Positions 1,328 through 29,514 of a DNA stretch of 38,868 bases are shown piece by piece. The notes below the pieces were generated by a model, which searched no databases, was not told the origin of the DNA, and saw only the letters and a program-made list of their open reading frames with translations. Position 1 is the stretch's first letter. The number at the start of each line of letters is the position of its first letter. The DNA comes from a virus. Where the stretch lies: positions 1-38,868 of the IMG/VR virus record IMGVR_UViG_3300028829_004553; one strand, 5' to 3'. The position numbers and the translations under genes are program-made.

Positions 1328-2278
1328 ATGGTAAATAACAAAATTGGTTATGCATGTATCAATATGGCATTGAGCTATCCTACTAAGTATGGTAACAAAC
1401 CAAGAGGTACAAAACCTATCACAACAAATCGTAGTATGATTCGTAGAACCTTTGATGATAAAGGTGTTGATTATGCTTCAGAACTTATCCTACAAAATGT
1501 AAAAGATTTAAATCAGATAGTACAATGGAATGTATTAAATGGTTATGATTTCTATCGTATGAGTAGTGATATCACGCCGTGGAAAACTGAGTATGAATGG
1601 GATGACCTAAAAGATATTGATGAGATTAAACAATGGTTACATTCTGCTGGAACAATGGCAACAACACATGGTGTTAGGTTGACCACACATCCAGGTCCAT
1701 TCAATGTATTAGTATCACCACATAATCATGTTGTTGATAATTGTGTAAAAGACTTAACAATACATGGTGATGTTATGGATATGATGGGATTATCAAGAAC
1801 ACCTTACAACAAGATTAACATTCATCTTGGTGGTGCATATGGAGATAAAGAATCAGCAATGGATAGATTCTGTAAGAACTTTTACAAGTTACCAGAGAGT
1901 GTACAAACAAGATTGACAATCGAAAATGATGATAAGGCATCCATGTACTCAGTACAAGATTTATACGATGGAGTATACAAACGAATTGGTATACCTATTG
2001 TGTTTGATTATCATCACCACAGATTTTGTGATGGTGGATTATCGGAACAAGAAGCGTTAGAACTAGCAGGTTCCACATGGGGTGATATTAAACCAGCAGT
2101 TCACTATTCAGAATCAAGAAGTATTGAACAAGAAGATTCAAAAATTAGACCACAAGCACATTCAGATTATGTGTTGGATTATATTGATACCTATGGTCAA
2201 GAGGTTGATATTATGGTCGAAGCAAAGATGAAAGAATTGGCCGTTAACAAATATAAGGAGATACATAATGTATTATGA
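1328..2278 (+). CDS. uvsE: UV damage endonuclease (UvdE/UvsE family)
   Basis: A 316-residue TIM-barrel endonuclease that nicks DNA 5' to UV photoproducts and other distortions. Family features are the N-terminal IGYACINMAL (6-15), the LNGYDFYRMSSDITPW block, the THPGPFNVL stretch, KINIHLGG, LTIENDD, and FDYHHHRFCDGG, which together supply the metal-binding His, Glu and Asp residues. Length matches the usual 300-330 residues. GGGAG lies 9 bases before the ATG. The gene is preceded by about 100 bases of AT-rich non-coding DNA and overlaps the next small gene by 11 bases. A UV repair enzyme makes sense for a surface-water phage. Confidence 0.9.
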   Translation: MVNNKIGYACINMALSYPTKYGNKPRGTKPITTNRSMIRRTFDDKGVDYASELILQNVKDLNQIVQWNVLNGYDFYRMSSDITPWKTEYEWDDLKDIDEIKQWLHSAGTMATTHGVRLTTHPGPFNVLVSPHNHVVDNCVKDLTIHGDVMDMMGLSRTPYNKINIHLGGAYGDKESAMDRFCKNFYKLPESVQTRLTIENDDKASMYSVQDLYDGVYKRIGIPIVFDYHHHRFCDGGLSEQEALELAGSTWGDIKPAVHYSESRSIEQEDSKIRPQAHSDYVLDYIDTYGQEVDIMVEAKMKELAVNKYKEIHNVL

Positions 2279-4449: not shown

Positions 4450-6069
4450 TTGAAAAAATGGTTTTATGAGAGAAGTCGTTTCTCTGAGTTTAAATCAAAT
4501 ACGACATATCACAAACTTCTGCAAATGAGTGCAGATGAATTCACAGAATGGGCACGATTACTTCGTAAAGAAGTTACTGAACAATGGGATGTTTATGGTA
4601 CACCACCTGTCATTGGTAAAAATGAAGATGGGTTGATTACCAAATTTAAAAAGTTAAAAGGTAATCCATGTGATTATTTAATCGAAGATAATACTGGTGA
4701 TAAAGAATCACTTGGTATAATTAAGAACTTCAATAAAGATGCATCTGGTGTAAATCAATTCTTCCCAACAATGTTAAAAACAAAAATCAGTATTGGTGCA
4801 TCAGCCGATAATGGTTTATCTATTTATGACCACTTTGGTGACCCAGAGTTAGAAGATAAGTTTGTTCATATTATGCGTAGAGCAGTAAAGAAAGATTCTA
4901 TGTATAGTTGGAGTAGAAGTATCGTAACCAAGAAAGATGAGAATCCTTTTTGGAATGGTGAGAGTGGTAAAGAATTTATTAAGAATGTACATGATGGTAA
5001 AGTTTCTATTGGTAAGTATTCAGATACAAGATTTGTACTTGCAAGAGTAAAGAAAAGTACAGTCGGTAATTATGGTACTATGAATGAAGAGTTTAAAGGA
5101 CATGGAAATGTTTACTTAACTGCAGAAGAAGTACAAGATTGTAAAGATAGTGGTTACTTGAATGATACACAATTAAGTAACATACCAGATATAGTTTCAT
5201 CTGAAACAAGTAAGAGTGGTAAAGTAACTGAGTTCTTATATCTAATCAGACACTATGATAAAACTATTGGTATCTTTCCAAAGATATTACAAGTGTTTAG
5301 ATTAGCATGTGGACAACCAGCAGTTAACTTCCCACCACTTACAGCAAAACTATTGTACGAAAAATTTACAGACCATATAGATAATCAAGACCAAAGGTTT
5401 CATATCTATGACCCAAGTAGTGGGTGGGGTGGTAGAATCTTAGGAGCAATGAGTTCTCGTAAGAAGATACATTATATTGGTACAGACCCTAATCCAGATA
5501 ACTTCGGTAGATACGAAGCAGTTGCTGATTTCTATAATAGTAATTGTGTAGATGATTTTTCTGAAACATTTACTCAGTTCTTTGAGGTAGAAAAACAAAG
5601 TAATACATATGATGTTTATAGAGAGGGTAGTGAATTAATTGGGAACAATCCTAACTTTCAAGAGTATAAGGGCAAGTTAGATTTAGTTTTCACTTCACCA
5701 CCATACTTTAACAGAGAGCAATACTCACAAGATGAGAATCAATCTTTCAAAGCGTATAGTCAATATGAAGACTGGGTTGATAACTTTCTTAGACCAACAC
5801 TCACAACAGCATATGAATATCTAAAAAATGATAGATACCTACTTTGGAATATCGCTTCTATTAAGATTGGTGCTAACACTTATTATGATTTAGAGGGTGA
5901 TAGTAGAAAGATACTTGAAGAGTTGGGTTGTGAATATAAAGGTAAACTAAAAATGTTAATGACAAGAATGATTGGGTTAGACCCAAGTAAGACAGGAATA
6001 TTAAACTCAGTACAACATGAGAATAATGTTTATAAATTTGAACCTATATTTGTATACTACAAATCATGA
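4450..6069 (+). CDS. DNA amino-methyltransferase-like protein with a novel N-terminal domain
   Basis: 539 residues. The C-terminal half (about 285-539) is a SAM-dependent methyltransferase of the N4-cytosine/N6-adenine type. The motif X-like NFPPLTAKLLYEKF (293-306) is followed by motif I DPSSGWGG (321-328), the acidic GTDPNPD (344-350) and motif IV TSPPY (415-419), with no obvious target-recognition insert between I and IV. The first 280 residues match nothing I recognise. They carry many aromatic and basic residues and may bind substrate DNA or a modified nucleotide. The TTG start at 4450 follows GGAG by five bases. The stop overlaps the next ATG by four bases, and the three following genes are likewise overlapped. 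Ordinary DNA methylation is possible, but the context suggests a step in base hypermodification. Confidence 0.78.
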   Translation: MKKWFYERSRFSEFKSNTTYHKLLQMSADEFTEWARLLRKEVTEQWDVYGTPPVIGKNEDGLITKFKKLKGNPCDYLIEDNTGDKESLGIIKNFNKDASGVNQFFPTMLKTKISIGASADNGLSIYDHFGDPELEDKFVHIMRRAVKKDSMYSWSRSIVTKKDENPFWNGESGKEFIKNVHDGKVSIGKYSDTRFVLARVKKSTVGNYGTMNEEFKGHGNVYLTAEEVQDCKDSGYLNDTQLSNIPDIVSSETSKSGKVTEFLYLIRHYDKTIGIFPKILQVFRLACGQPAVNFPPLTAKLLYEKFTDHIDNQDQRFHIYDPSSGWGGRILGAMSSRKKIHYIGTDPNPDNFGRYEAVADFYNSNCVDDFSETFTQFFEVEKQSNTYDVYREGSELIGNNPNFQEYKGKLDLVFTSPPYFNREQYSQDENQSFKAYSQYEDWVDNFLRPTLTTAYEYLKNDRYLLWNIASIKIGANTYYDLEGDSRKILEELGCEYKGKLKMLMTRMIGLDPSKTGILNSVQHENNVYKFEPIFVYYKS

Positions 6070-6752
6070 TAGTAATTAATTCAAACTCACCAACAGATGC
6101 TTGGATAAAATCACACGAGTATCTTTTAGAGAATGGTAATAAAGATGTGATGAATGAATCTATTAATATGAGTGTAGAGATAGAAGATAACTTTGATACA
6201 GACCCGAAGTTTGATGGTATCTTCAGAGATGTATTTGGTAATGATAGAATTGATTATGCATCATCGGTTACATTTGTACCACCAACAACACATCCTTTTA
6301 TGGATGAGTTACAATACCAACAAAATGATACTTCAGTAAAATGGAATAAAACATATTGGGGCAGAATGATTAATTGGGATAATAGTTTTAATCAAGTGGA
6401 ACAAACTATCAAAAGATTGAAAGAGCATAAGAATAGTAAAACCATAGCGATGAGCATATATGACCCCAAATCCGATGGTAGAAAGACTATGGCAGGAATG
6501 CCATGTTTGTTATCGGTTGATTTGAAACCGCGTAAAGAGGGATTATATCTTACAGCTTTTTTTAGAAGTATGAGAATTAGTAAGAGTGGTTATGCTGATT
6601 GGGTTGCGTTATGTGAGATGGGTAAGTTCTTATGTGAACAAGCAGATTTAAAATTAAAACGAGTTACAACAATTGGTGGTTCAGTTCATCTTGGTGATAT
6701 GAATAATGAAAAGAAAAATGTAAAGGAGATACTTCGTGTGTGGAATAGTTAG
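6066..6752 (+). CDS. Thymidylate-synthase-fold protein, predicted dCMP-type (hydroxymethylase-like)
   Basis: 228 residues, aligning without gaps to the core of thymidylate synthase. MPCLL supplies the catalytic Cys147 (E. coli Cys146). FRSMR supplies Arg167-Ser168 (Arg166-Ser167) for phosphate binding. GGSVHL supplies His208 (His207). The residue equivalent to Asn177, which reads the pyrimidine, is Asp178 in GYADW. T4 dCMP hydroxymethylase also has Asp here, and the change switches preference from dUMP to dCMP. Asp169 of the folate site is replaced by Arg170 and Tyr209 by Gly210, so chemistry or cofactor may differ. It is shorter than normal synthases. The most likely role is C5 modification of dCMP as the first step of a cytosine hypermodification route. 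It overlaps both neighbours. Confidence 0.75.
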   Translation: MIVINSNSPTDAWIKSHEYLLENGNKDVMNESINMSVEIEDNFDTDPKFDGIFRDVFGNDRIDYASSVTFVPPTTHPFMDELQYQQNDTSVKWNKTYWGRMINWDNSFNQVEQTIKRLKEHKNSKTIAMSIYDPKSDGRKTMAGMPCLLSVDLKPRKEGLYLTAFFRSMRISKSGYADWVALCEMGKFLCEQADLKLKRVTTIGGSVHLGDMNNEKKNVKEILRVWNS

Positions 6753-8241
6753 TACGGTCAATCATAGTGATGAAGTTGTACACGATATGTTACTTCAAAT
6801 TGAACACAGAGGTAGGGATAATCGAGAGATTTTTGAGTGTGGTAATGTACACCTGGGCCATAATAGATTAAGTATAAATGATGTAAGTGAAGCAGGAAAT
6901 CAGCCATTTATTTGGAATGATTATGCACTTGTAGTTAATGGTGAGATATGGAACTATCCACAATTAAGAAAAGAATATGAAGAACGAGGTTATACATTTT
7001 TTAGTAATAGTGATTCAGAAATAATTTTATATCTATACAAAGAGAATGAACTAAAAAGATTAGAGGGTATGTTTAGTTTTGTATTACATGACTCATTAAC
7101 TAATGAGTTAGTTATATCAAGAGATTGGGTTGGTAAGATTCCATTATACATTTATAACAATGATACAAATATTTTAATTGCATCTGAAATGAAATCAATA
7201 TTAAAAATATTACCACAAGCAGAATGTAAGTTTGTTCCAAAAAATTCAGTAGTGAGAATAAACACTATAACTGGTTCAGTACATATTGATAAAGATTACT
7301 ATTTTACTTGGACACCATTTGAAGAAAAAGAGTTTGACCAAGATGAGGTTAATAAAAAAACTTATGAGTTGTTAGATACTGCAGTAGAGAAAAGATTATT
7401 AAGTGATGTTAAGGTTGGAACTTGTTTAAGTGGTGGTATCGATTCAAGTGTTATTACTTATTTGTTAAGTAAGAAAGTACCTGATATCGTATCTTATACA
7501 GTCAAGTTCGATGAGGATTCAAGAGATTTAATGTTTGCAAGAATGGTTGCAGAGCATATCAATGTACCATTGGTTGAGGTTGAGATACCAAGAGACCCAG
7601 AAGAATTAAAAAGAAAATTTTTAGAAACAATAAAGGTTATAGAATATCCATCAACAGTCCAAATGGAAGTTGGTATTCTACAAAGTTATGTTGCCGAGAG
7701 AATGGCAGAGGATGGTGTTAAGGTTGCGTTTAGTGGTGAGGGTTCTGATGAATCGTATGGTTCATATGGTACATTCAGAATGTTCAGTAAGAAACCAGAT
7801 TGGAGTGATGTACGAAAGAAATTATTTGAGAAACAATACTATGGTAATTTACTTCGTGGAAATAATATCTTTATGAATTATGGAACAATAGAATTAAGAT
7901 GTCCATTCTTCGATTTAGATTTTTTAGATTACACTACTAACCTTACACAACCAGTATTAGATAATAGTGGAAACCAATGGAAGAAACCACTTGCTGAAGC
8001 ATTTCGTGGACACTTACCAGACGAGGTATGTGACCAAGAGAAAAGAGCATTTCAGAAAGGAACAAACTTCAAAGAGTATATCGAAGATGTAATTCTAAAT
8101 GATACAGAATTAAATTTTAGAAATAGAAAAAAACTATTTCATTGTATCGGTGATAACTTTGAAAGAATATTTGGTTTCAAACATAAAGGTATGAGAGATA
8201 CTTTATCTGGCACTGAAAATGGATTTGGGAAATGGACTTAA
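6736..8241 (+). CDS. Asparagine-synthetase-like class II glutamine amidotransferase
   Basis: 501 residues, both halves complete. The Ntn glutaminase begins MCGI, so Cys2 becomes the N-terminal nucleophile. This requires the GTG start at 6736, which follows AAGGAG (6723-6728). Glutamine-site motifs are HNRLSI (42-47), VNGEIWN (67-73) and SDSE (92-95). The synthetase half has the ATP pyrophosphatase loop SGGIDSS (232-238), GEGSDE (334-339), RCPFFD and a KRAFQKG element like AsnB's. It should hydrolyse Gln, adenylate a carboxylate and pass ammonia to it. E. coli AsnB makes Asn this way. In this operon the carboxylate may instead be a modified base or a free amino acid. It overlaps the gene before by 17 bases and the gene after by 10. 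Confidence 0.9.
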   Translation: MCGIVSTVNHSDEVVHDMLLQIEHRGRDNREIFECGNVHLGHNRLSINDVSEAGNQPFIWNDYALVVNGEIWNYPQLRKEYEERGYTFFSNSDSEIILYLYKENELKRLEGMFSFVLHDSLTNELVISRDWVGKIPLYIYNNDTNILIASEMKSILKILPQAECKFVPKNSVVRINTITGSVHIDKDYYFTWTPFEEKEFDQDEVNKKTYELLDTAVEKRLLSDVKVGTCLSGGIDSSVITYLLSKKVPDIVSYTVKFDEDSRDLMFARMVAEHINVPLVEVEIPRDPEELKRKFLETIKVIEYPSTVQMEVGILQSYVAERMAEDGVKVAFSGEGSDESYGSYGTFRMFSKKPDWSDVRKKLFEKQYYGNLLRGNNIFMNYGTIELRCPFFDLDFLDYTTNLTQPVLDNSGNQWKKPLAEAFRGHLPDEVCDQEKRAFQKGTNFKEYIEDVILNDTELNFRNRKKLFHCIGDNFERIFGFKHKGMRDTLSGTENGFGKWT

Positions 8242-9086
8242 TACAAACACCAATTGAAACATATTCACTTAAGGGTATTGATGTCGATGTCAAGAGAGAT
8301 GATTTAGTTGGAGATGGTGTAACATTTCCACGATGGTCAAAGATAGAGGGTATCAGAAGAATATTAGAAAGTGATAGTATTGATAAATCAAAGCCGTTAA
8401 CACACTTATCAGTTTATGGGAGTTGGACAGGTTGGACACTATCACAATTATGTAAAGAGTATGGTATAGAATTTATTTCTGCGTATCCTAATACAGAAAG
8501 GTTTCCAAAAATATTATTGGAAAGAGTTGAGGGTAATGGTGGTAAGTTACATCCTATGAGACCAAACATGATGGCATTCATGCAGAACAAATTGAACACA
8601 CAAGCAAAAGAGAATGGTTGGCAACAATTACCATATGCATTCAATCATCCCGCATACATTAGTTATATGGGGGCAAGAATGAGAGAAGTTTTAAAAGGTA
8701 GGGAATATGATAACCTTGTAGTTAGTATCGGTAGTGGAGTTACTGCAAGTGGATTGATAAAAGAATTTTTAGAGTATGGAGATGATTGGTGGAAGTTAGA
8801 TTCTGAATCAAGAAAAGTTTACTCTATAACGATGAGTGCTTTCTCATCAACAAAAAAGATTTTAAATGAGAATCATGCAGGTGATTTAAAAAATGTTATA
8901 CTTGAGAAATCACCTTACGCGTTTGATGATATGATGGATGATTACGAAGTACCATTTGATTGTAATGAGTTTTGGGACAAGAAACAATGGTATTGGTTAG
9001 AACAGAATATTGAAACACTAAAGGGTAAGACACTCTTTTGGAATATAGGTGGTTCGTATTTAAAATCAATAAATGAAAAAAAATAA
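8232..9086 (+). CDS. PLP-dependent enzyme, ACC deaminase / D-cysteine desulfhydrase fold
   Basis: 284 residues of fold-type II PLP enzymes. The opening TPIETYSLKGIDVDVKRDDL matches the family's start. The Schiff-base Lys is most likely Lys37 in PRWSKIEGI (family GGNKxRKLE). GSWTGWTLSQL fits the substrate-carboxylate loop (family QSNHTR). IGSGVTASGL is the Gly-rich phosphate-binding loop, and NIGGSYL near the C terminus fits the family's HTGG element. It is shorter than the usual 330 residues. The substrate is probably a small amino acid; deamination, elimination or replacement are all possible. Its start lies inside the amidotransferase gene (10-base overlap), so the four genes from 4450 form one coupled unit. 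Confidence 0.8.
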   Translation: MDLIQTPIETYSLKGIDVDVKRDDLVGDGVTFPRWSKIEGIRRILESDSIDKSKPLTHLSVYGSWTGWTLSQLCKEYGIEFISAYPNTERFPKILLERVEGNGGKLHPMRPNMMAFMQNKLNTQAKENGWQQLPYAFNHPAYISYMGARMREVLKGREYDNLVVSIGSGVTASGLIKEFLEYGDDWWKLDSESRKVYSITMSAFSSTKKILNENHAGDLKNVILEKSPYAFDDMMDDYEVPFDCNEFWDKKQWYWLEQNIETLKGKTLFWNIGGSYLKSINEKK

Positions 9087-9157: not shown

Positions 9158-9934
9158 ATGAAGCAACTAACAGAACAACAGATACAAGATAACTACTTAA
9201 AACTACGCAGTATCATTAATGATACATTTACAGGTGAAAGGTTAGAGAAGTTAAATACAATGTATGACCATTTTGAAGATAGAATGGTATTAGCACCAGC
9301 AAGTGCTAAAGAACATTATCACAATGCTTGTGTTGGTGGTTATGTAGAACATGTCATTCACATTGTAGAGATGTCTCAACAAGTAAGAGATTTATGGTTA
9401 CAGAATGGAGCAGATATTAATTTCACAAATGAAGAATTAATCTTTGCAGCCCTACACCATGATTTAGGTAAGGTTGGAGATATGGAACATGATTACTATG
9501 TAATCAATGAATCGGAATGGCACAGAAAGAATCAAGGAAAGATTTACAATCATAATCCTGAATTAACTTACATGACCGTCACAGATAGAGCAATATTTAT
9601 TTTACAACACTTTCAAATCCCTATGACAGAAAACGAATACATGGGTTTGAAATTAACAGATGGAATGTATGAAGAAGCAAACAAAAAGTATTTAATGACA
9701 TTCTTACCAGAGACTGGTTTGAGAGGTCATATTGCTCGTATACTACACCAAGCAGATATGATGGCAACATATATCGAGGGTGACCAATGGGAACAAGCAG
9801 GACAGGTTGGTAAAAAGAAAGTTGCCAAATCAGTTAACAATATTAAAGCTGCTGTTAAAACTGAAGTAGAAACTAAACTCACAGGTGATTCACCAAAGGA
9901 TTTATTTGATGAGTTGTTTGGAGATAAGAAATGA
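9158..9934 (+). CDS. HD-domain metal-dependent hydrolase
   Basis: 258 residues with a canonical HD domain. The first metal His is in the HNACVGGYVEHVIHIV stretch, the HD pair is in AALHHDLGKVGD (about 97-108), and later His and Asp residues occur in LHQADMMATYIEG (about 206-218). This layout is that of nucleotide phosphohydrolases and of the HD exonuclease group (YhaM-like). Phage members are often dNTP or oligonucleotide hydrolases. The C-terminal 40 residues are Lys-rich and probably flexible. Ribosome-binding site GGAG is at 9141-9144, and a promoter is predicted just upstream. The stop overlaps the next ATG by four bases. Confidence 0.82.
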   Translation: MKQLTEQQIQDNYLKLRSIINDTFTGERLEKLNTMYDHFEDRMVLAPASAKEHYHNACVGGYVEHVIHIVEMSQQVRDLWLQNGADINFTNEELIFAALHHDLGKVGDMEHDYYVINESEWHRKNQGKIYNHNPELTYMTVTDRAIFILQHFQIPMTENEYMGLKLTDGMYEEANKKYLMTFLPETGLRGHIARILHQADMMATYIEGDQWEQAGQVGKKKVAKSVNNIKAAVKTEVETKLTGDSPKDLFDELFGDKK

Positions 9935-10182: not shown

Positions 10183-10904
10183 TGCCAAGAAAAGCAAAAA
10201 AAGGTTCACCAAGATATTATTTCAATCAAGATACCGAGAATGCTATCATTCGTCATAATAAAGAAGAACGACCTCATATGAGGGAGAGAATCTATAACGA
10301 ACATATTCGTACACCTTTTGAAAAATTGGCTGAGAATATTATTCACACTTTTAAATTTTACTACTTTGATGTTCCATCGGACGATGTTAAACATGAGGTG
10401 GTTAGTTTCTTGTATATGAACATTCATAAGTTCGCCGAGGGTAAGGGTAAGGCCTTCTCATATTTCTCGATTGTTGCCAAGAATTATCTCATTCTACATA
10501 ACAATAATAACTACAAGAGAATGAAGCAGCATGATGGTGAAGAGGTTACTGATTATAAGAGAGACCCTGTCGGAGAGATGAGAGGGATTGACACCAAGTC
10601 AATGAAATCAGAATACATTGTTCTTCTTGCTGATTATTGGAGAAACAATCTTACTACAGTCTTTAAACGAAAGAAAGACTTGGATGTTGCTAACGCAGTT
10701 GTTGAATTGATTGATATGAGAGAAAATATTGAGAACTTTAACAAGAAGGCATTATACATTTTAATTCGTGAGATGACTGGTTCCAACACACAACACATTA
10801 CTCGTGTTGTCAATGTGATGAAGAAACATCATTGGGAACTACAGAAGAACTACCTACAATCAGGTTCTGTGGAGACAAAGTTCACTGGTTCGTGGTTCAG
10901 TTAA
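10182..10904 (+). CDS. Late-transcription sigma factor (T4 gp55-like)
   Basis: 240 residues. The opening RYYFNQDTENAIIRHN and the following PFEKLAENIIHTFKFYYFD, DVKHEVVSFLYMNIHKF and KAFSYFSIVAKNYLILHNN blocks are the region-2 signature of T4-like late sigma factors. That region binds RNA polymerase and recognises the TATAAATA late box. It is longer than T4 gp55 (185 residues) because of a C-terminal part (about 160-240) that could act like a region-4 or coactivator-binding domain. A matching TATAAATA occurs at 12078 ahead of the virion genes. AGGAGAT precedes the ATG. Confidence 0.88.
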   Translation: MPRKAKKGSPRYYFNQDTENAIIRHNKEERPHMRERIYNEHIRTPFEKLAENIIHTFKFYYFDVPSDDVKHEVVSFLYMNIHKFAEGKGKAFSYFSIVAKNYLILHNNNNYKRMKQHDGEEVTDYKRDPVGEMRGIDTKSMKSEYIVLLADYWRNNLTTVFKRKKDLDVANAVVELIDMRENIENFNKKALYILIREMTGSNTQHITRVVNVMKKHHWELQKNYLQSGSVETKFTGSWFS

Positions 10905-11716
10905 AATTATACCACCAAGACTGGGATTACCGAAAAGATAATACTGAAAAGTATCCGCAGTTAAAACAGATAACTTCACAACCTAATTCTTTTTGGTTAG
11001 TTGATAATCCTATCAAACGACTGAAGAGGTTGTCAAGTAGAGTACACAGATTGTGTAAACGAGCACATCCCTATCAACCTGTTATTGTTTTATATTCTAT
11101 ACCAGATAGGGATGTAGGTGGACATTCAAAAGGTGGATTAACACAAACTCAATATCATGATTTTATTAATGAAGTGGTAGAGGGTATTGGTGATTACTCA
11201 CCTATTGTAATAATCGAACCTGATGCACTTCCACATATGAGAAAGGGTATGAGTTATTATCAAAGACAAAAACGAACTCGTCTCATAAAATCCACAATAC
11301 AAAAACTATCCAAAACTAATGCAGTAGTTTATCTTGATATAGGACATCCTAAATGGTTAAAGAGAACTGATGCAATTACTTACTTGGGTATGTTTCATTC
11401 TAATAAGGTTCAAGGGTTTAGTATCAACACAAGTAACTTCGTAACTACAGATAAGTGTATACGATATGGTGATAAGATTGCTAAACACTTTGGTTGTAGT
11501 TATGTTATTGATACATCACGAAATGGTAATGAAGTTTGGGAAACATTTAATCCACAAGAAATGAAGATAGGAAATAAACCTACTACGGATACAGATTCAG
11601 AATATTGTGATGCATATCTTTGGATTAAAACACCAGGTGAAAGTGATGGTGCAATAAATGGTTGGCCGAAAGCTGGAAGATTTAATGCTGAGAAAACTTT
11701 GGAAATCTTAAAGTAA
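10892..11716 (+). CDS. Glycoside hydrolase family 6 (endoglucanase/cellobiohydrolase-like)
   Basis: A 274-residue protein with GH6 catalytic landmarks in order. VIVLYSIPDRDVGG contains the PDRD Asp (Asp74). IIEPDALPHM contains the expected acid Asp111. Then come VYLDIGHPKWL, GFSINTSNF, YVIDTSRNG and DAYLWIKTPGESDG (the family's WVKPGGESDG). GH6 enzymes invert beta-1,4-glucan bonds. There is no signal peptide and no carbohydrate-binding module, so it acts in the cytoplasm until lysis or travels in the virion. No ATG precedes the domain. GTG at 10892, overlapping the sigma gene by 13 bases, is chosen over TTG at 10832, but neither has a good ribosome site. It ends inside the terminator stem. 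Confidence 0.82.
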   Translation: MVQLKLYHQDWDYRKDNTEKYPQLKQITSQPNSFWLVDNPIKRLKRLSSRVHRLCKRAHPYQPVIVLYSIPDRDVGGHSKGGLTQTQYHDFINEVVEGIGDYSPIVIIEPDALPHMRKGMSYYQRQKRTRLIKSTIQKLSKTNAVVYLDIGHPKWLKRTDAITYLGMFHSNKVQGFSINTSNFVTTDKCIRYGDKIAKHFGCSYVIDTSRNGNEVWETFNPQEMKIGNKPTTDTDSEYCDAYLWIKTPGESDGAINGWPKAGRFNAEKTLEILK

Positions 11717-26862: not shown

Positions 26863-29514
26863 ATGAGATGGTTGATAATAGGCCTAATGTGGTTGGGTTT
26901 TGTCTTCCCACAAGAACCCGTCATTAGGATTATGCAAACTGGCACTTATGATACACCAGAGTATTGGTGGAGAGAAAGTGTTACGCATCAATTACAAACT
27001 TACTTAGCAGATGATAAAGATAATCCTGCTTTGTATAATAATAATTTTGATGCTTGGAGAGATAGTGTAATGACTATGGAAGTTACACTTGATGATGATG
27101 GTGCTGATGTTACTGCACTAAGATTAGATATTATTTTTGATAACGATATAATTGATTGGGATGATGAAGATACTGAAGTATTAAAAGGTTCATGGTTAAC
27201 TCAAGCAACTGAGGGTGATTCTACCGCAGGAGCTGATTATTCATATGAAGTTGTTCACTATTCCGATGTTGGATATATCGATTCTTTACAAACTGCTGAT
27301 AGTGAAAAATCAGAAGCTAATGCAAGATACGATTGGTTAAGAATTACAATGGTATCACACAATGGTGATGAATTTACTTTTGGTGGTGGAGAGGGTGTTC
27401 AAAAACAATTAGTAAAATTAAATTTTAAAATAGAAGATGTTGTGGATGATTTCAGTCCGCGTTCTTTTAGAGTACCAACATTATATGAGGGTGGTGAGGG
27501 ATACTACACTTATATAAGTGATGATTACTTATTAGATTACGATGTTTACATTGATGGTAATTATGGTACGGAAGAAACAGACCAAGGTGGTGCAAGAGGA
27601 GATATTTCTCTACATCCAAAACTTGTTGATGTTGAGGGATACTTTAGGTATGCACAAGATAATGCAATAACTAATGATAACACTTATCCTTATTGGAAGA
27701 TTAGATTTGAATTAGACCAAAGTAATCCAGATGAATACAATAGTTGGTACAACATTGAAGATATTGATAATGAAGCAAACTTAACTGATGAAACAACAAC
27801 CGATGATGTCATTGGTGATGATACATCTACATTTTGGTTTGATGATAAAGGAACTACTGCAGCACAAACGCTACCAGGTGAGGGTTTCTTAGGAGTAAGT
27901 TATTTTGATTCTACATACACAGATGATAGAGGATATTATAATATTCAGTTACCACGAAACCAAAAATATCGTATGTCATTTTATCCACCAGATGCTAGTG
28001 ATGATATTGAATCACATACACCATTAACATTGGATAGATATGGAATTACAAACATCAACGATGCTATTGCAGCATTTAATTTCCAAAGTAATAAGTTTAA
28101 ATCTGTTACAGGTGTAGATACACTAAACGCAGTTGAATACTTTATTGGTGATGTGGATGGAGATGATGTATTCCAATTAAATGATGCATATTTCTTATGG
28201 GCATACACAAGTGGTATCATTGATACATATGTTCACTTAAATGGTGATACACTACAGAGTTGGGCAACTATCGATACACTAAAAGAGGGTGGTGAACCAT
28301 TTCCTTATGGATACTATGAAGATTGGGGTAATCAAAGATATGAGTTTACTATATTCAAAGATGATGATTTTGACCAAGATACTACATTACAATTTGGACA
28401 GATTGAAGTTATCAATCCATTGATGGATGATATTCAGACTGGTTTAGATACCTTAGATATTGGTTTTGCTGGTGGTTCATCTACATATGGAAATGATGTT
28501 AATCCAGATTACACAATTGATAGTTTAGCATACTTCTTTACAGGAGATGTAAACGCAAGTGGTACTAAAGTAAAAGAAGCAGGTTCAACATCAGATGGTG
28601 ATGATTTCGATATTGAAGATGTAGGAAGTACTGATGGATACATTGATATAAATGGCGATACATATTATCGTTGGGGTAATGGTAACCCACCAAGTACTTG
28701 GGCAAACAAAATTGCATTTAATACACCTGATGTGTTTATGACATTACCTGCAGATTCCACAGTCAGAGTTCGTAGTGGTGATATTATTGAAGTACCATTC
28801 ACTCTAACACCAGAACAAGTAAATGTTGCTGGATTTGAGTTTGAAGTAGAATTTAATTCTAATGAATTAGAGTTTGTTGATATGAAGACTGGAAACTTAC
28901 CAGGGCCGTGGTTCACTTATGTGAATGTACACGAACCAATACAAGGTAAACAGAAAGTATCATTTGGTGGTATGGATTATTCACCAGGTAACGCACCACA
29001 AACTTATTGGATAGATAGTCAGATAAATGCTCTAACATTATTATTCAGAGCAGATTTTCCTGATGCAGAGTGGACAGAAGCACCTGTAAACTTCGTTGAT
29101 AAATATGCTGCTGGTAATCCAAGTGGTCAAGATTTATTAGTGAGTAGACAGAGTGGTAAAGTGATGGTATGGAATAAATATTGGGCATTCGGTGGTGGAG
29201 AACCAGAAGAGAATGAGCTAACTTATAACTATCCAAATCCATTTAGAGAAAATACAAGATTCCAATTTTATGTTGAAGAGTTGTCAGATGTAAAACTTTA
29301 CATACTAAACTCTAATGGACAATATGTTGGAACATTGTTAGATGAGAGTGTAGAACCAGGTATACACACATTTGATTTTTCAAATGAACCAAGTGTTTGG
29401 TTACCTGAAGTTAGTGTTTATCAAGAACACCAAACTTTAGAACCAGGTGTTTATATATTTGTTTTACAGAGTGGAAATAAAATTAAGGCCAATAAATTTA
29501 CGGTCGTTAAATAA
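26863..29514 (+). CDS. Secreted T9SS cargo protein with cohesin- and dockerin-like parts
   Basis: 883 residues. The N-terminal signal peptide MRWLIIGLMWLGFVFPQ probably cleaves near residue 16. Residues 68-192 and 622-768 look like cohesin-type beta-sandwiches (ALRLDIIFDNDIIDW; VAGFEFEVEFNSNELEFVDM, ALTLLFRADF). Residues 397-451 contain dockerin-like helices and a calcium loop, GDVDGDDVFQLNDAYF. The C terminus (about 785-883) is a T9SS type A sorting domain: NYPNPF (789-794), VKLYILNSNGQYVGTLLD, EPGVYIFVLQSG, KFTVVK. In FCB bacteria such a tail sends proteins through the outer membrane and anchors them on the surface. The next gene encodes a PorV/Q-like protein. Role in the phage cycle unknown. 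Confidence 0.85.
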   Translation: MRWLIIGLMWLGFVFPQEPVIRIMQTGTYDTPEYWWRESVTHQLQTYLADDKDNPALYNNNFDAWRDSVMTMEVTLDDDGADVTALRLDIIFDNDIIDWDDEDTEVLKGSWLTQATEGDSTAGADYSYEVVHYSDVGYIDSLQTADSEKSEANARYDWLRITMVSHNGDEFTFGGGEGVQKQLVKLNFKIEDVVDDFSPRSFRVPTLYEGGEGYYTYISDDYLLDYDVYIDGNYGTEETDQGGARGDISLHPKLVDVEGYFRYAQDNAITNDNTYPYWKIRFELDQSNPDEYNSWYNIEDIDNEANLTDETTTDDVIGDDTSTFWFDDKGTTAAQTLPGEGFLGVSYFDSTYTDDRGYYNIQLPRNQKYRMSFYPPDASDDIESHTPLTLDRYGITNINDAIAAFNFQSNKFKSVTGVDTLNAVEYFIGDVDGDDVFQLNDAYFLWAYTSGIIDTYVHLNGDTLQSWATIDTLKEGGEPFPYGYYEDWGNQRYEFTIFKDDDFDQDTTLQFGQIEVINPLMDDIQTGLDTLDIGFAGGSSTYGNDVNPDYTIDSLAYFFTGDVNASGTKVKEAGSTSDGDDFDIEDVGSTDGYIDINGDTYYRWGNGNPPSTWANKIAFNTPDVFMTLPADSTVRVRSGDIIEVPFTLTPEQVNVAGFEFEVEFNSNELEFVDMKTGNLPGPWFTYVNVHEPIQGKQKVSFGGMDYSPGNAPQTYWIDSQINALTLLFRADFPDAEWTEAPVNFVDKYAAGNPSGQDLLVSRQSGKVMVWNKYWAFGGGEPEENELTYNYPNPFRENTRFQFYVEELSDVKLYILNSNGQYVGTLLDESVEPGIHTFDFSNEPSVWLPEVSVYQEHQTLEPGVYIFVLQSGNKIKANKFTVVK

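Follow-up and report, generated by a model that had tools for sequence, protein, structure and literature searches.

A four-gene phage cluster as a candidate operon for cytosine hypermodification of DNA

Background

The DNA of Pseudomonas phage M6 carries 5-(2-aminoethyl)deoxyuridine, or 5-NedU (PMC6449724), and 5-hydroxy-deoxycytidine monophosphate (5-hydroxy-dCMP) is made in RB69-type phages by an enzyme of the thymidylate synthase (TS) superfamily (PMC13390438). A third route employs CmoY, an asparagine synthetase homologue that joins glycine to the 5-carboxymethylcytosine base; CmoY-type ligases that retain a glutaminase domain are predicted to use ammonia (PMC12783734). Here we analyse four overlapping genes in IMG/VR virus record IMGVR_UViG_3300028829_004553, a viral contig of 38,868 bases (the window) whose source is regarded as a marine bacterial virus. 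The genes encode a methyltransferase-type protein (MT) with a TSPPY motif, a TS-like protein, an AsnB-like amide ligase and a pyridoxal phosphate (PLP) enzyme. The original prediction, made from this sequence alone, had proposed that they act together in an undescribed pathway of cytosine hypermodification that starts with 5-hydroxymethylation. Their co-occurrence, and their homology to three established DNA-modification pathways, make it fairly probable that the cluster is a phage DNA hypermodification operon acting on cytosine. The prediction is thus partly supported: its anatomy, joint role in DNA modification, target base and likely novelty appear right, but the hydroxymethyl start and the definition as a four-gene set need revision.

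Results and discussion

A conserved operon with exchangeable members

The four open reading frames (Table 1) overlap successively by 4, 17 and 10 bases, as first described. Dozens of viral contigs show the arrangement, with proteins 45-98% identical, and the same overlaps recur with it, which argues for a real, selected operon and against chance. A close search placed homologues of the TS-like protein on 22 viral contigs and a profile search on 76; the contigs reach 375 kb, and jumbo phages are among them. Bacterial genomes yielded only one locus, in an Ignavibacteria metagenome-assembled genome, which is probably viral. Within the window's phage group the order MT-TS-AsnB-PLP-HD is nearly constant, the last being a gene for an HD-domain protein. 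The order in a group of Flavobacteria-type phages is NrdB-NrdA-thioredoxin-TS-AsnB-PLP-MT2-DNA polymerase-clamp-MT.

After removal of TS proteins more than 70% identical to one another, 10 lineages had enough flanking sequence for comparison. The amide ligase adjoins the TS-like gene in nine, the PLP enzyme in six and a radical S-adenosylmethionine (SAM) protein in four; every lineage has one or other of the latter two, and seven have a neighbouring TSPPY protein of MT type. The viral co-occurrence that the original prediction had proposed as a check is therefore found, but membership varies. These counts also bear on whether the genes might be unrelated auxiliary metabolic genes (for asparagine, threonine and dCMP/deoxyuridine monophosphate (dUMP) metabolism, with an orphan DNA methyltransferase) that are neighbours by chance. 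The AsnB-like protein does pass the broad TIGR01536 cut-off, and phage annotations name the PLP relative a threonine dehydratase. However, the TS-ligase pair is kept, with overlaps, in nine of 10 divergent lineages, a synthetase-only ligase is exchanged at the same place, and the PLP relative lies within the M6 hypermodification cluster, so that we regard a chance assembly as quite improbable.

The exchange of members shows that no fixed set of four genes exists. Some phages have, at the PLP position, a radical SAM protein of about 450 residues with a CxxxCxxC motif (PF04055, up to E=2e-16), and two contigs (L010 and L192) carry both genes. Others (L043 and L156) have a 300-residue synthetase-only protein, lacking the glutaminase domain, at the ligase position. 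In a further class (L060, L119-L144) the PLP enzyme, AsnB-like ligase and TSPPY proteins occur with a 2-hydroxyacid-dehydrogenase-like gene in place of the TS-like gene. The original prediction had counted clusters without the TS-like gene against itself; that gene is indeed missing from this class, but the remaining genes stay together. Given the module exchange and the TS-free class, the common core is a ligase, a PLP or radical SAM enzyme and a TSPPY protein, and the TS-like enzyme defines one large branch, the window's own.

Two further arrangements were seen. The TS-free clusters of L119-L144 (for example L132:6986-11025) adjoin clamp loader and clamp genes and apparently represent a different hypermodification variant. 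At L203:4486-6891, next to a TS-like gene, a radical SAM enzyme is fused to a TSPPY-type PF01555 methyltransferase domain.

A TS-like enzyme of cytosine type without the folate contact

The TS-like protein matches PF00303 (E=3e-7) and the archaeal-type model TIGR03283 (E=3.5e-21), the latter being its best NCBIfam match. Among 77 aligned homologues, which underlie all residue counts given here, the catalytic C147, the phosphate-binding R167-S168, D178 and H208 are invariant. D178, already identified in the original prediction as the dCMP-type Asp, aligns with D179 of T4 gp42, a dCMP hydroxymethylase, whereas the dUMP-type gp58 of M6 carries Asn there. Thymidylate synthases and hydroxymethylases bind the folate through the Asp of their RSxD motif. 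The corresponding position 170 is Arg in 68 homologues, Ala in nine and Asp in none, whereas the Asp is kept in T4 gp42, M6 gp58 and the TS proteins of Enterococcus phage VPE25, Gordonia phage Forza and a Vibrio phage.

An AlphaFold model of the TS-like protein (mean predicted local distance difference test score, pLDDT, 80) has as its first structural match 9iqc, a monooxygenase with dCMP and flavin adenine dinucleotide; second comes MilA, a cytidine monophosphate (CMP) hydroxymethylase tied with 9iqc as best match, and third 9iqu, a phage dCMP hydroxylase. By profile score the closest cultured relatives are the TS proteins of VPE25 (59 bits) and Forza (52 bits), both of dCMP type; the Mosigvirus (RB69-type) enzyme scores 28 bits and T4 gp42 3 bits. 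The VPE25 gene adjoins genes for a beta-glucosyltransferase and a dUTPase. The safest statement is that the TS-like protein appears to be a dCMP C5-modifying enzyme whose ancestor was a dCMP-type TS and which no longer has the usual folate contact; the group placed at C5 could be hydroxymethyl, hydroxyl or another.

Two chemistries deserve weighing, both of them sub-readings of the hypermodification explanation that do not exclude it. On the classical route the protein would be a folate-dependent dCMP hydroxymethylase, with amino-acid chemistry then acting on 5-hydroxymethylcytosine. The proximity of the profile to VPE25, Forza and MilA and the TIGR03283 match fit this route, but the replacement of the folate Asp in every homologue does not, and we think it rather unlikely. 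The 5-hydroxymethylation with which the original prediction began is doubtful, because the folate Asp is lost in 77 of 77 and the best structural match, tied with MilA, is a flavin-dependent dCMP 5-hydroxylase. On the second route such a hydroxylase would supply 5-hydroxycytosine as in RB69-type phages, to be decorated with an amide or amino acid and not with arabinose. The ranks of 9iqc and 9iqu point this way, as does the Mosigvirus enzyme, which also lacks the folate Asp (Asn instead) and outscores T4 gp42, and a pathway of this kind has been published (PMC13390438). The claim is weakened by the greater whole-sequence similarity to the VPE25 and Forza enzymes, by the difference between Arg and Asn, and by the structural tie with MilA; it draws on the lost Asp and the fold and not on descent, and is in our view a serious possibility short of a probable one. 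With the folate Asp gone, a reaction without folate is slightly favoured.

In Enterobacter phage Entb_45 (L214:5-244), genes for a chorismate mutase and a U32 peptidase-family protein adjoin a gene of 5-hydroxy-dCMP-synthase type. U32 proteins form 5-hydroxyuridine in transfer RNA, and this link may be of interest.

The similarity to MilA also raises the question of whether the enzymes produce a small cytosine nucleoside metabolite and not modified DNA. The mildiomycin and blasticidin pathways contain a CMP hydroxymethylase, PLP enzymes and radical SAM enzymes, and the partners found here resemble them. However, many phages carry these genes in their replication module, next to ribonucleotide reductase, polymerase and clamp genes, and relatives of the PLP enzyme and ligase sit in DNA-modification clusters; a metabolite product is very improbable.

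Ligase, PLP enzyme and methyltransferase-type protein

The AsnB-like protein passes the cut-off of the asparagine synthase model TIGR01536 (E=4e-87). Its N-terminus is MCGI, and C2, R44, N68-G69-E70, D93, SGGIDS and GEGxDE are all kept, so the glutamine amidotransferase (GATase) and PP-loop motifs are intact, in agreement with its earlier description as a complete class II glutamine amidotransferase/asparagine synthetase. The GATase domain is predicted to be the source of ammonia. The closest ligase relative in a cultured phage is gp124 of Streptomyces phage TurkishDelight (225 bits, versus 178 bits for E. coli AsnB), and gp124 in its turn is more similar to the window's ligase than to E. coli AsnB. 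It is flanked by a C5-methyltransferase with SPPC (CmoX type) and by a CmoA homologue; the CmoA model TIGR00740 matches gp125 (E=2.6e-25). The exchange of glutaminase-bearing and synthetase-only ligases in similar operons mirrors the CmoY case and, by that analogy, suggests the use of different amines.

The TurkishDelight region itself (L217:5127-10155) contains two ParB-like genes, the CmoX-type methyltransferase, the glutaminase-bearing AsnB-like ligase and CmoA. As a cultured phage, TurkishDelight would lend itself directly to tests of the branch of the 5-carboxymethylcytosine pathway that uses ammonia.

The PLP protein matches phrog_7093, labelled 'threonine dehydratase' (E=9e-25), and is homologous to M6 gp52 over 96% of its length (tblastn, E=4e-21, 30% identity). 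In an alignment that includes gp52, Lys37 is invariant within an S/A/G-K-I/V/L motif, and the fold is type II. It had been called an enzyme of the 1-aminocyclopropane-1-carboxylate (ACC) deaminase fold; the fold type stands, but the nearest relative from a characterised pathway is gp52 and not ACC deaminase. Alignment with ACC deaminase had raised the idea of a pseudo-enzyme without its catalytic Lys, which was dropped on the evidence of the gp52 alignment. The gp52 gene lies between genes for an amino-acid:DNA transferase (ADDT, PF18724) and a radical SAM protein, near those for a 5-hydroxymethyldeoxyuridine (5-hmdU) DNA kinase and a TS. Lee et al. in 2022 reportedly described gp52 as decarboxylating an amino acid linked to the base.

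The match of MT to PF01555 (N6_N4_Mtase) is confined to residues 411-538 (E=2.9e-6), and a Pfam search gave no match across the first 290 or so residues, consistent with the N-terminal domain of no known family noted before. MT is the best conserved of the four proteins, with 71-88% identity among seven divergent phages, and paralogous TSPPY proteins, often in several copies, adjoin clamp and DNA polymerase genes. MT is probably the DNA-level step of the pathway. Because the TSPPY proteins are highly conserved, often multicopy and placed beside clamp and polymerase, we speculate that they are the best candidates for such a step, perhaps using a SAM-derived group.

Comparison with described systems

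Of the described systems, that of M6 shares with the window a homologous PLP enzyme of the gp52 family, a first enzyme of the TS superfamily and a nearby HD protein; some relatives of the window cluster also have radical SAM partners. It differs in that its TS gp58 is of uracil type (Asn), whereas that of the window is of cytosine type (D178 in 77 of 77); in that the window cluster adds an ATP-dependent amide ligase and TSPPY methyltransferase-type proteins; in that ADDT and the 5-hmdU kinase were not found; and in that the radical SAM protein of the relatives has no BLAST similarity to M6 gp53. The CmoA-CmoX-CmoY system of Synechococcus phage S-B43 and the TurkishDelight cluster likewise has a phage asparagine synthetase homologue, with or without a glutaminase domain, beside a DNA methyltransferase-type gene, and a ParB-like gene is present in one contig of our set (L212). 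However, MT is of the TSPPY amino-methyltransferase type (PF01555, not PF00145) and has no C5-methyltransferase SPPC, the window-type clusters add TS-like, PLP and radical SAM proteins, and CmoA was not found.

With the arabinosyl-5-hydroxycytosine system (RB69/AfhB type) the window shares a TS-superfamily enzyme that has the dCMP-type Asp and has lost the folate Asp. The replacing residue is Arg or Ala in place of Asn, the similarity is distant (28 bits), and no arabinosyltransferase is seen in the window cluster. The 5-hydroxymethylcytosine system of T4 also places a dCMP-type TS-fold enzyme, with the Cys and the cytosine-recognising Asp, beside replication genes, but the window enzyme lacks the folate Asp, no T4-type deoxynucleoside monophosphate (dNMP) kinase was found, and an amide ligase and a PLP enzyme replace the glucosyltransferases. 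No description of this gene set was found in the literature searched, which fits an undescribed pathway; the use of an AsnB homologue on phage DNA has, however, a precedent in CmoY (PMC12783734). The chemistry of CmoX and CmoY has been followed in E. coli by LC-MS.

Several results weigh against a cytosine hypermodification operon. Neither ADDT nor the 5-hmdU DNA kinase (PF18748) was found in any of 12 records, including contigs of 169 kb and 276 kb, although contigs may be fragments; the carboxy-SAM (Cx-SAM) synthase CmoA (TIGR00740) was found in none of 16 records; and no T4-type dNMP kinase scored above the cut-off in the records tested. With these four not found, the known routes for attaching an amino acid or a carboxylate to the base are not visible here. 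The TS-free class, in eight records of which a PF00303 protein is absent, and the folate Asp retained in VPE25 and Forza, which leaves the hydroxylase reading without support from ancestry, count on the same side, as does an AlphaFold model of MT whose quality (mean pLDDT 44) precludes interpretation. The whole gene set was not found in any cultured phage, and in Vibrio 2.058.O, Bacteroides DAC16 and Mammaliicoccus PMS2, cultured phages with MT-like genes, no TS-ligase-PLP set is annotated near those genes. Since CmoA was not found, a carboxymethyl (Cx-SAM) handle was set aside.

A proposed pathway

The scheme below goes beyond the observed genes, families, key residues and co-occurrence, and its substrates, order of steps, carboxylate source and final base are what we infer. 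Judging from its residues, the TS-like enzyme would attack C6 of dCMP with Cys147 and install an oxygen-bearing handle at C5; with flavin and oxygen the product would be 5-hydroxy-dCMP, with one-carbon chemistry 5-hydroxymethyl-dCMP. The modified nucleotide would then be incorporated into DNA, on which the SAM-dependent TSPPY protein would act. The AsnB-like ligase would adenylate a side-chain carboxylate and form an amide with glutamine-derived ammonia, comparable to the attachment of glycine to 5-carboxymethylcytosine by CmoY. Finally, the alpha-amino-acid part of the side chain would be reshaped by the PLP enzyme, or by radical SAM proteins in other lineages, as is believed for M6 gp52. The modification would serve to protect phage DNA against nucleases.

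Neighbouring genes

The HD gene is a constant neighbour in the window's phage group, and it also adjoins the ligase in two contigs (L060 and L138). The glycosyl hydrolase gene is unusual for a phage, yet it is kept in many relatives of this group, and the UvdE and peptide deformylase genes recur 5' of the cluster in several relatives. The cohesin domain and the Por-type signal suggest a host of the Marinimicrobia, Ignavibacteria or Bacteroidota kind.

Table 1. Coordinates of the cluster and of other features in the window
Feature	Position	Strand	Evidence and remarks
MT, SAM-dependent N6/N4-amino-methyltransferase type	4450-6069	+	PF01555, TSPPY motif; TTG start, upstream GGAG
TS-like protein, thymidylate-synthase fold, dCMP type	6066-6752	+	PF00303, TIGR03283; C147, R167, S168, D178, H208; R170 replaces folate Asp
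AsnB-like ATP-dependent amide ligase, class II glutamine amidotransferase domain intact	6736-8241	+	TIGR01536; GTG start, upstream GGAG
PLP enzyme, fold type II, M6 gp52 relative	8232-9086	+	phrog_7093; invariant Lys37
HD-domain phosphohydrolase-like protein, candidate accessory gene	9158-9934	+	phrog_28876, E=1.2e-12; synteny
Peptide deformylase	48-641
UV-damage endonuclease UvdE	1328-2278		E=4e-60
Glycosyl hydrolase family 6 (cellulase/cellobiohydrolase family) protein	10832-11716		E=1.5e-45; overlaps preceding gene
Tail-region protein, 1629 aa	18993-23882		Hint (Vint) self-splicing-type domain, residues 303-413, E=5.8e-19
Protein with cohesin domain	26863-29514		Weak Por-type C-terminal secretion signal (YNYPNPF)

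Conclusions

We tentatively propose, with a little less than even confidence, that these genes belong to a pathway widespread among phages, whereby a non-folate TS-fold enzyme makes C5-modified dCMP, and a ligase with PLP or radical SAM enzymes builds an amino-acid-derived amide on DNA cytosine, yielding an undescribed base; the amine, ammonia or others, would be varied by swapping the ligase and the tailoring enzyme. If this is true, a single cytosine pathway in many uncultivated phages, jumbo phages included, would unite kinds of enzyme known from three distinct DNA-modification pathways, and both a new modified base and a folate-independent TS-fold enzyme are to be expected. Phages may mix and match side-chain chemistry, as the exchange of ligase, PLP and radical SAM modules suggests.

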